From Fibrobacter sp. UWR4 (GTDB taxonomy: Bacteria > Fibrobacterota > Fibrobacteria > Fibrobacterales > Fibrobacteraceae): a stretch of DNA of 64,000 nt. Within the stretch, counting starts at the first letter, position 1, and the number at the start of each line of letters is the position of its first letter. Positions 55,239 to 58,202 of this stretch are shown here, piece after piece. Below the pieces are notes generated by a model. That model was not told the origin of the DNA and ran no database searches. It worked only from the letters and a program-made list of their open reading frames with translations. The DNA lies in the NCBI RefSeq assembly GCF_003149045.1, contig NZ_QGDU01000004.1:62001-126000 (forward strand), given 5' to 3'. A program made the position numbers and the translations under genes.

Positions 55239-55760
55239 ATGGATTTTAATGAATTGGCCCAGGCCCGCTATAGTTGCCGCAAGTTTAATGACCGTGTTGT
55301 TGAAGACGATAAACTGAATACCATTCTGGAGGCAGGACGCCTAGCTCCCACGGCGACCAATGCCCAGCCGGTAACCGTTCTTGTATTGAAGTCTGAAGAA
55401 TCGCTGAATAAGCTACGAGCCTTGACCCGCATGACTTATAATGCCAAGACCATTCTTGTGGAGTGCTATAATACGGACATCAGCTGGAAGGCAAAGAATT
55501 ACAACGATGATTTTGATGCTGGCGATATGGACGCTAGTATTGTGACCACCCACATGGCTCTTGCCGCCAAGTCCGTAGGGGTGGAATCCCTCTGGGCGCG
55601 TGCCTTTAACGCTGCCGACGTGGCCAAGGCCTTTGACCTGCCGGAAAATGTCCATGTAGCCTGCATTCTTGACTTGGGATATGCGGATGCGGAACAGGGT
55701 GGTCCGTCGCCTCGCCATGAAGCCCGAAAGCCCATGGCTGAATTTGCCAAGGAACTTTAG
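55239..55760 (+). CDS. Nitroreductase-family flavoprotein
   Basis: A 173-residue FMN-dependent oxidoreductase of the nitroreductase superfamily. FNELAQARYSCRKFNDRVVEDDKLNTILEAGRLAPTATNAQPVTVLVL is the classical FMN-binding N-terminus (R-x-S-x-R-x-F; A-P-S/T-x-x-N-x-Q). The C-terminal LPENVHVACILDLGYA contacts FMN in the family. It is short compared with NfsB (217) and similar to small nitroreductases of anaerobes. The natural substrate is unknown. Start ATG 55239 follows AAAGGGTAAAAAT. It overlaps by four bases the convergent lipoprotein-like gene. Confidence 0.87.
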   Translation: MDFNELAQARYSCRKFNDRVVEDDKLNTILEAGRLAPTATNAQPVTVLVLKSEESLNKLRALTRMTYNAKTILVECYNTDISWKAKNYNDDFDAGDMDASIVTTHMALAAKSVGVESLWARAFNAADVAKAFDLPENVHVACILDLGYADAEQGGPSPRHEARKPMAEFAKEL

Positions 55761-56386
55761 AATTCGGCTCTGTCGTTCCAGATTTCCTCGATGACTTCGC
55801 ATATATCGTCGGTGTCGTCGATGGAAGTGGTTCCTGTAATCATGTAGATGTATTTTCCCGCCTGGACGCTGGCCAGAGTGCAAGTCTTGCTGTCGGGGAG
55901 GGAACGGCTGATGGTGCCGTATTTCTTTTGTGTGTTGTAGACAGCTTCGCCGGCTTTGTAGTTAATTTCGTGGCCATGTTCTTCAGCGGCCTTTGCAACC
56001 AGTTTTTTCCAGTAGTCCATGTCCCAGTTTAGGTAGTACATGGCGAATTCCTCGTCGCTTACGTCCAGGGGCGAGGTGAAGGTCGTATCTTGGGAGAAAT
56101 AGTCTTTTCGGGCTCCGCGGATGCCAATTTGTGTATCGTTCTTTATGACGGTAAAGGCGAATAATTCCTTTTCCAGGGAGAACATATCGATATGGTAGCT
56201 CCAGGCGCCGCCAAATTCAAACTTGAGGGGAAGAGGTGCCGGTATATGGATGGTTCTGCTGGTTACATACACGTGTCCCATATTCTGCATGGTGTATTCT
56301 TTCACCGAGGGCTCAAGGCGACTGGGGGTAAAGCAACCATAGAATGTAAGGGCGGCAAAAGCTAAAGCAATCAGATTCTTGATTAT
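55757..56386 (-). CDS. Hypothetical lipoprotein-like protein; start codon unclear
   Basis: The securely open frame from GTG 56305 gives 182 residues (MKEYTMQNMGHVYVTSRTIHIPAPLPLKFEFGGAWSY ...). Reading farther upstream in the same frame, residues IKNLIALAFAALTFYGCFTPSRLEPSVKEYT are encoded without a stop. This is a convincing lipoprotein-like signal peptide with Cys after Tyr-Gly. No ATG, GTG or TTG precedes it; the codon at the natural start (56386-56384) is ATA. The gene may use a rare start or have lost its start. If GTG 56305 is the true start, the product would be cytoplasmic. The mature part has no recognised family; a C-terminal LASVQAGKYIYMITGTTSIDDTDD segment is notable. Confidence 0.5.
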   Translation of the reverse strand: MIKNLIALAFAALTFYGCFTPSRLEPSVKEYTMQNMGHVYVTSRTIHIPAPLPLKFEFGGAWSYHIDMFSLEKELFAFTVIKNDTQIGIRGARKDYFSQDTTFTSPLDVSDEEFAMYYLNWDMDYWKKLVAKAAEEHGHEINYKAGEAVYNTQKKYGTISRSLPDSKTCTLASVQAGKYIYMITGTTSIDDTDDICEVIEEIWNDRAEF

Positions 56387-56435
56387 AGAAAGAATATAGG
56401 AAAATGCTTTGGAATCGAGGAGAAAAGTGCGGAAA

Positions 56436-56655
56436 TTACCTATAAATTAGAATATAAATTGGCTTTTATAGGTATTTTTTAGAATAAACTAACGGAAAAT
56501 TTCGATGTAGATGTTACTTTTATTCTTTTGTTACCCATAATTTGGAGTCTTTTGTTCAATTTATGGGTAATCCAACTTACCTTGCGAAGAAAAAAATGCA
56601 GGTGCGTTCCATATTTACCCATAAATGATTGCGAAATCTCGTGTTTATAGGTAAA
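56436..56655. promoter_or_regulatory. Array of six TTACCYATAAA half-sites in three inverted pairs
   Basis: Pairs: TTACCTATAAA (56436) with TTTATAGGTA (56465); TTACCCATAA (56531) with TTATGGGTAA (56561); TTTACCCATAAAT (56614) with TTTATAGGTAAA (56644). Within each pair the half-site centres are about 29 bases apart; the three pairs span 39, 40 and 42 bases. They lie in the 373-base divergent gap upstream of purB and could be operators or RNA hairpins. Confidence 0.7.
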
Positions 56656-56717
56656 AAGCGGGTTTGTCGTTCTAGTTCCCTCTAGTACACTGGAAAATTC
56701 CTCTTAAATTTCTACAT

Positions 56718-56730
56718 TTTACGCCGTAAA
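56718..56730. promoter_or_regulatory. Perfect palindrome next to the purB start
   Basis: TTTACG-C-CGTAAA, followed by GGGG-TCG-CCCC (about 56736) immediately before the purB AAAGGA ribosome-binding site. Confidence 0.4.
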
Positions 56731-56759
56731 TTTAACGGGGTCGCCCCAAAGGATAAATC

Positions 56760-58202
56760 ATGCGTGATCAATTCGAAAGCCCGCTGATTCAGCGTTATGC
56801 TTCTAAGGAAATGAGTTTCATCTTCAGCCCGCAGTACAAGTTCCAGACTTGGCGCAAGCTGTGGATCTTCCTGGCTGAATCCGAAATGGAACTTGGCCTG
56901 CCCATTACCCAGGAACAGGTGGACGAACTGAAGGCTCACGCAACCGATATCAACTTTGACGTTGCCGAAGAAGAAGAAAAGCGCCGCCGTCACGACGTGA
57001 TGAGCCACGTTTACGCTTACGGTGTGCAGTGCCCCAAGGCTAAGGGCATCATCCACCTGGGTGCAACTTCCGCTTTCGTTGGTGACAACACCGACCTCAT
57101 CCAGATGCAGCAGGCTTTGATCATCGTTCGTAAGCGTCTCTGCCGCGTGATGGATAAGCTCTCCAAGTTCGCCATGGAATACAAGGACATGGCTCAGCTG
57201 GGTGCTACTCACTTCCAGGCTGCTCAGCTCACCACCGTGGGTAAGCGCGCTTGCCTCTGGCTCCAGGACCTCCTCATCGACCTGGAAGAAGTGAACTTCC
57301 TTATCGAAGTGCTGCCGTTCCGCGGTGTTAAGGGCACCACCGGTACCCAGGCTTCCTTCATGGATCTGTTCAACGGCGACGAAGAAAAGATCATGGAACT
57401 GGATCGCCGCGTGACCGCCAAGGCTGGCTTTAAGCGCGTGCTCACCATCACCGGCCAGACCTACACCCGTAAGTGGGACAACCGCGTGAACCAGGTGCTC
57501 AGCTCCATCGCTCAGTCCCTCCACAAGTTTGCTACCGACATGCGCCTCATGCAGGGCGTTAAGGAAGTGGAAGAACCGTTTGAAAAGACCCAGATCGGTT
57601 CCTCTGCAATGGCTTACAAGCGTAACCCCATGCGTTCCGAACGTATCTGCTCCCTGGCCCGTTTCGTCATGGCCCAGGTGAACAGCACCGCCATTACTCA
57701 GGCTACCCAGTGGTTCGAACGTACCTTGGACGACTCTGCTAACAAGCGTCTCGCTATTCCTGAAGCATTCCTCGCTATGGATGCAATGCTCATCATCGCT
57801 GAAAACGTGACCAACGGCCTCGTGGTTTACCCGAAGGTGATCGAAAAGCGCATTATGGCAGAACTTCCGTTCATGGCTACCGAAAACATCATCATGGAAG
57901 GCGTGAAGAATGGCGGCGACCGTCAGGAACTCCACGAAGAAATCCGCGTCATGAGCCAGGAAGCTGGCCGCGTCGTTAAGGAACAGGGTAAGGATAACGA
58001 CTTGCTCGAACGTGTCCTCAAGAACGAAAAACTCCAGAAGCTTGGCATTACCGAAGAAAAGCTGAAGGAAATCCTCGACCTTCGCAAGTTCGTTGGCCGC
58101 GCTCCTGGTCAGGTCGTGAAGTTCGTGACTGAAGAAGTCCGCCCGGCTATCGAAGCAATCGCTGACTGGGATAATATCGACGCCGGCGAACTGAAAGTTT
58201 AA
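56760..58202 (+). CDS. purB: Adenylosuccinate lyase
   Basis: A 480-residue enzyme of the fumarase/aspartase superfamily that catalyses two purine steps: SAICAR to AICAR plus fumarate, and adenylosuccinate to AMP plus fumarate. [24 protein letters not shown] is the flexible signature loop with catalytic Ser, with Ala replacing the usual Pro; [14 protein letters not shown] and [19 protein letters not shown] are also characteristic. The length suits the longer PurB type. The start follows AAAGGATAAATC. Its unusually rich upstream region (six TTACCYATAAA half-sites, a palindrome) suggests dedicated regulation. Codon use is strongly biased, as in a highly expressed gene. Confidence 0.95.

Follow-up and report, generated by a model that had tools for sequence, protein, structure and literature searches.

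Upstream of purB in Fibrobacter sp. UWR4 lie six copies of an 11-base half-site in alternating orientation, and the question raised by this locus is what reads them and why they are there. The window in which they were found is a stretch of 64,000 nucleotides from this genome (G000 below). The initial annotation of the window described three evenly spaced inverted pairs and offered two explanations, cooperative binding by a dimeric regulator that is possibly purine-responsive or three tandem RNA hairpins.

Architecture of the array

All six alternating half-sites are present, and every pair has the form TTACCYATAAA-N18-TTTATRGGTAA (Table 1). The array had been placed at 56436-56655; its start is correct, and its end should be 56654. 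The distance of about 29 bases reported within pairs holds precisely, as the half-site offset is 29 bp in all three pairs with N18 between the 11-mers. Even spacing from pair to pair was not borne out, since the two distances differ and correspond to different numbers of turns of 10.5 bp. The window holds eight half-sites with at most one mismatch, compared with 1.3 expected, and 0 of 100 shuffles reach eight. To the left of the array, a lipoprotein-like gene (55757-56400) has no in-frame ATG, GTG, or TTG ahead of its signal-peptide-like stretch; its first GTG, at 56305, falls after that stretch, which may reflect an unusual start codon or a frameshift.

Table 1. Features of the array upstream of purB (window positions) and contigs of the window genome that carry arrays
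Feature	Position	Strand	Description
Inverted pair 1	56436..56475	.	TTACCTATAAA-N18-TTTATAGGTAT
Half-sites of pair 1	56436-56446; 56465-56475	+; -	second half-site with 1 mismatch
Inverted pair 2	56531..56570	.	TTACCCATAAT-N18-TTTATGGGTAA; centre 95 bp (9 turns) from pair 1
Half-sites of pair 2	56531-56541; 56560-56570	+; -	first half-site with 1 mismatch
Inverted pair 3	56615..56654	.	TTACCCATAAA-N18-TTTATAGGTAA; centre 84 bp (8 turns) from pair 2
Half-sites of pair 3	56615-56625; 56644-56654	+; -	
Whole array, three pairs	56436..56654	.	1 of ~7 dispersed arrays in the genome
purB (adenylosuccinate lyase)	56760..58202	+	chance neighbor of the array
Arrays in G000	C2 + end of C23, C4 (window), C13, C23, C32, C40, C48		

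Across Fibrobacter, the distances between pairs (63, 74, 84-86, 95-96, 105 bp, etc.) follow a period of 10.5-10.55 (R = 0.91, n = 106). The same phasing is seen for other motifs with R = 0.89 and n = 118, a set that includes a few spurious low-scoring calls. Orthologous arrays provide a measure of constraint. Half-sites differ at 6 of 702 positions between G037 and G056 and at 13 of 233 between G000 and G011, compared with 37 of 700 and 61 of 220 spacer positions, respectively. Spacers thus change about five times as fast as half-sites, in a comparison with a mild bias, since sites were called in only one of the two genomes. Such conservation points to selection acting at least on binding.

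Dispersal and copying

With up to three mismatches allowed, 16 TTACCYATAAA pairs in the window genome make up the intergenic arrays, and the reversed pattern occurs 0 times. Judging from the intact locus in G011, the arrays on C2 and at the end of C23 apparently belong to a single array divided between these contigs. Arrays with this motif are found in 12 of 61 Fibrobacter genomes, outside coding regions and at about one per 200-500 kb. They are enriched between convergent genes (25/58 vs 48/311 gaps, p = 7e-6), their loci are mostly not common to different clades, and the neighboring genes are unrelated. The gap between asp23 and serC is mostly 74-166 bp without an array and ~520 bp with one; at this locus, which is array-free in relatives, the array is bordered by the left gene on one side and by the right gene's terminator on the other. 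Genome-wide searches were performed with four motifs (TTACCYATAAA, AGGACTAA, TACATACTA, and GGTAACAAA), and 4/4 are dispersed: AGGACTAA in 11/61 genomes, TACATACTA in 15/61, and GGTAACAAA with 38 pairs in the genome it comes from, against 0 in six further genomes.

When species-representative genomes were scanned, the same arrays, spaced at 84 or 74 bp, appeared in metagenome-assembled genomes (MAGs) labelled Eubacteriales, Clostridiales, and Lachnospiraceae, as well as a single pair in one Paludibacteraceae MAG. These distant genomes are all MAGs, and contamination of single contigs is possible. Contamination is hard to invoke for G066 (138 pairs) and G068 (19 pairs) because in both the genome's only homolog of the protein family described below lies ~0.1-0.2 kb downstream of an array. 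The pairs of G066 (Eubacteriales MAG S27M_St_58; L145, L162, L168, L169) form tandem arrays of up to nine units ~84 bp apart, with units that are similar within one array and apparently dissimilar between arrays.

Two Lachnospiraceae genomes give a view of how arrays multiply. In G062, about eight loci with mostly unrelated flanks, including the array of the cognate gene, carry 74-bp units that are 74-85% alike. G068 has three array loci that match at 96-98% identity across ~300 bp, together with two further arrays at 84-90%. Homologous arrays at unrelated loci indicate that arrays get copied. The copied arrays of G068 (L368, L369) have up to 560 bp in common, non-array DNA included, and may belong to a larger mobile unit. 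In Fibrobacter, the spacers of different arrays within one genome are unrelated and copying is not visible, so copying there is old or proceeds by other means. For the same reason, one fixed inserted element in Fibrobacter was rejected, even though the asp23-serC gap is longer with an array. An origin from phages or plasmids was also rejected, as pattern matches in viral contigs are confined to a single group of phages related to each other and appear to be chance occurrences.

The cognate gene and its family

Clustering of array-near proteins across lineages brought out one family that adjoins arrays in both Fibrobacter and Firmicutes, with members beside an array in Fibrobacter, in Lachnospiraceae, and in other Firmicutes. 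The cognate gene in the window genome, G000:C2:217-1044, lies outside the window (ortholog P0001, ~276 aa). An upstream array of their own, comprising three or more phased inverted pairs, was detected for 57/68 family genes (56 automatically and L143 through a known motif) and for 14/20 further ones. It was undetected in 11/68, many of them more distant members. The motifs differ from member to member (AAAGGACTA, TGTCACTAA, GGGTACTAA, GGGGCGTAT, TTACATACT, TGCTACTAA, GGTAACAAA, and others) and the architecture stays the same. For most members, these comparisons show a predicted site sequence that is the protein's own, upstream of its own gene.

Its distribution is patchy, with occurrence in 41/61 Fibrobacter genomes, and the family is multi-copy. 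Any of TTACCYATAAA, AGGACTAA, and TACATACTA is present in 24/40 genomes with a family gene vs 1/21 without (p = 2e-5), and 24/25 genomes with any of these three motifs have a family gene. The exception, G028, carries one TACATACTA array (G028:C8:1002-1173) with no family match detected; the spacers are identical to those of G006:C111, which suggests contamination or a missing gene. G060 and G006 have a few pairs each, and their cognate gene was not located. Four genes of the family, with four motifs, are present in the window genome, and dispersal has been shown for two of these motifs. In G000 and G009 (L241, L271), the family gene with the AGGACTAA motif lies downstream of an lspA-like gene. 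The array of the TAGGACTAA-type gene in G033 (L262 / L260) has an extra ~201-bp tandem repeat unit, with two pairs per unit, relative to G059. No Pfam or NCBIfam family covers the protein, and PHROG gave no strong match. This large protein family, found in gut bacteria, is apparently undescribed, as no description was found in open-access papers.

Protein domains and specificity

An AlphaFold2 model of a family protein (mean pLDDT 90) has three strands and a long helix in the N-terminal domain and a PD-(D/E)XK-like arrangement in the C-terminal domain. Across 60 members, S155, E158, P171, Y174, E175, D204, E219, H220, G222, and Y229 are invariant; the canonical PD-(D/E)XK lysine is not evident, and E-H stands in its place. 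Structural matches to PD-(D/E)XK endonucleases by Foldseek are weak (PDB E > 0.01; best in BFVD 4e-6 with low TM). The C-terminal domain is homologous to the C-terminal domain of the PADLOC helicase PDC-S68 (E 5e-25), and tblastn located it in plasmid and phage helicases and in three weak matches from phage-labelled metagenome records, the best of which (MT839528) has no array. With the canonical lysine not evident, a nuclease activity is putative. Tens of intact chromosomal sites would be dangerous if cut, so such an activity would have to be held back, limited to certain conditions, or missing altogether.

Against the PDB, the model of the N-terminal domain gives no significant match, and its chromodomain-like Foldseek matches have E > 0.4. 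Whether two proteins have the same motif is predicted better by N-domain identity (AUC 0.87) than by C-domain identity (0.65), in a comparison of related sequences that are not independent. In the sheet region, Q42, D51, and T52 mark the TACCYATAAA group.

Proposed mechanism and alternatives

We consider it probable that the purB array serves as a platform on the chromosome to which the G000:C2:217-1044 product binds, by the following mechanism. Two protomers would occupy one inverted pair, each binding by its N-terminal domain, and the C-terminal domains would be placed over the 16-20 bp spacer in a geometry like that of zinc-finger nucleases. Phased pairs would assemble a single cooperative complex along the same face of the DNA. 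The array upstream of the cognate gene would autoregulate that gene, and the dispersed arrays would be its mobile satellites, comparable to REPINs and their RAYT, kept functional by selection.

Several other explanations need to be weighed against this platform, and the purine operator is the one that the locus itself invites. Conservation upstream of purB in relatives had been named beforehand as the check. At loci with purB and upstream sequence (up to 600 bp), a pair is present in 0/30 other Fibrobacter genomes, including G055, G037, and G056, which have arrays elsewhere, and close relatives such as G025 with an identical PurB. The purB promoter-proximal segment (~56704-56759, downstream of the array and separate from it) is conserved while the pair is not, and a purine operator of purB was therefore rejected. 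Of the original proposal, the cooperative, dimeric DNA-binding protein suggested by the regular geometry stands and the purine-responsive regulator of purB falls. We agree that the motif does not match the PurR or PurBox consensus; its sequence differs, and the sites are dispersed at unrelated genes. The PurR PurBox of Bacillus also has two inverted boxes with a gap of similar size. The likeness extends to paired inverted boxes, whereas the sequence and the protein family are different here and there is no pur link. A global transcription factor, with the purB array regulating purB or the divergent lipoprotein gene, would gain from the array upstream of the cognate gene, which makes autoregulation plausible. 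However, arrays are enriched at the 3' ends of convergent genes rather than at divergent promoters, one lies outside the terminator of a neighboring gene, and their neighbors are conserved neither between clades nor in the purB relatives, so that we regard this explanation as quite improbable. A conserved regulon was rejected because the genes beside arrays differ between clades. Inverted repeats ahead of a gene could also act in RNA, as tandem hairpins, as terminators, or as a purB-leader riboswitch, and to this we give almost no credence. The two arms vary independently at the Y/R position (Fisher p = 0.27) with no compensatory pairing, the spacing follows the DNA helix with 10.5-bp phasing, the 18-nt loops are free in sequence, like arrays also lie between convergent genes, and an Rfam search returned no family that matches the array. 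Together with the slower change of half-sites than of spacers, the independent arms and the phasing point to predicted DNA-binding sites, and the hairpin reading was rejected.

Two further explanations accept a DNA-bound protein and assign it another purpose. The arrays may organize the chromosome as anchors at which the protein loads or which it links together, as with MatP or ParB. Their non-coding placement at about one per 200-500 kb, their enrichment between convergent genes, and their phased, cooperative layout would all fit, but a presence in 12/61 genomes of one genus and several systems per genome argue against a housekeeping role, and array loci mostly differ between clades; we find an organizer unlikely. 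Alternatively, the arrays may be a protective sink or self-mark that holds a harmful, perhaps anti-phage, nuclease on the chromosome or marks the DNA as self, which would make site loss costly. The PD-(D/E)XK-type residues invariant in 60 members, the C-terminal homology to candidate defense helicases PDC-S68, the purifying selection on half-sites at individual loci, and the several orthogonal systems per genome, patchy across phyla like defense genes, speak for this idea. On the other side, a defense-island context is not demonstrated, informal inspection of neighbors found no partner gene and the gene looks solitary, and a REPIN-like system fits the same data. A sink or self-mark is therefore a doubtful explanation, if a less remote one than an organizer.

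Relation to known systems and significance

The platform and its satellites have a close parallel. In REPIN-RAYT (REP-TnpA_REP) systems, a single-copy enzyme gene is flanked by its own palindromic repeats, and the cognate repeats are extragenic and form inverted doublets and clusters in tandem; the presence of distinct enzyme/repeat pairs in a genome, within-genome copying, and lateral transfer between distant hosts complete the picture (PMC3116915, PMC8266576, PMC8049555). Cognate repeats beside a single-copy gene and dispersed extragenically are found here as well, and copying of repeats within a genome is found in G062 and G068 only. Doublets in inverted orientation, clustering, orthogonal systems side by side, and lateral spread are further points in common. 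The RAYT enzyme is an HUH/Y1 (IS200-like) transposase, whereas the protein here is of putative PD-(D/E)XK type with an N-terminal sheet domain. REPIN repeats are GTAG-tagged single-strand hairpins present in hundreds of copies; here, double-stranded half-site pairs with free 16-20 bp spacers are present in tens, and the spacing between pairs, unlike that in REPIN-RAYT, is locked to the DNA helix. The array/protein system parallels REPIN-RAYT and is not a member, as the HUH transposase and the GTAG hairpins are absent. With the candidate anti-phage helicases PDC-S68 of PADLOC, the family shares the homologous nuclease-like C-terminal domain; it lacks the helicase, is ~276 aa long with an unrelated N-terminal domain, and has sequence-specific arrays in the host genome. 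Engineered zinc-finger nucleases and TALENs are alike only in inferred geometry, with a reading domain and a nuclease domain on inverted half-sites around a free spacer; here, the proteins are natural, the domains are others, the site arrays are intact in the host genome, and cleavage is putative.

We put forward tentatively, as a minority possibility, that these are widespread natural proteins resembling zinc-finger nucleases, with their own DNA addresses, that seed phased arrays as mobile satellites, the arrays in turn restraining the nuclease by serving as its sink or as a self-mark. More generally, the gene and its arrays would be a second, independently evolved case, besides REPIN-RAYT, of a single-copy enzyme with dispersed cognate repeats, spanning at least two phyla. 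The dozens of protein/motif pairs would offer a ready data set for a protein-DNA recognition code, and the geometry of the protein may be useful as a scaffold for sequence-specific nucleases. The question of why bacteria keep intragenomic repeat populations would become testable.
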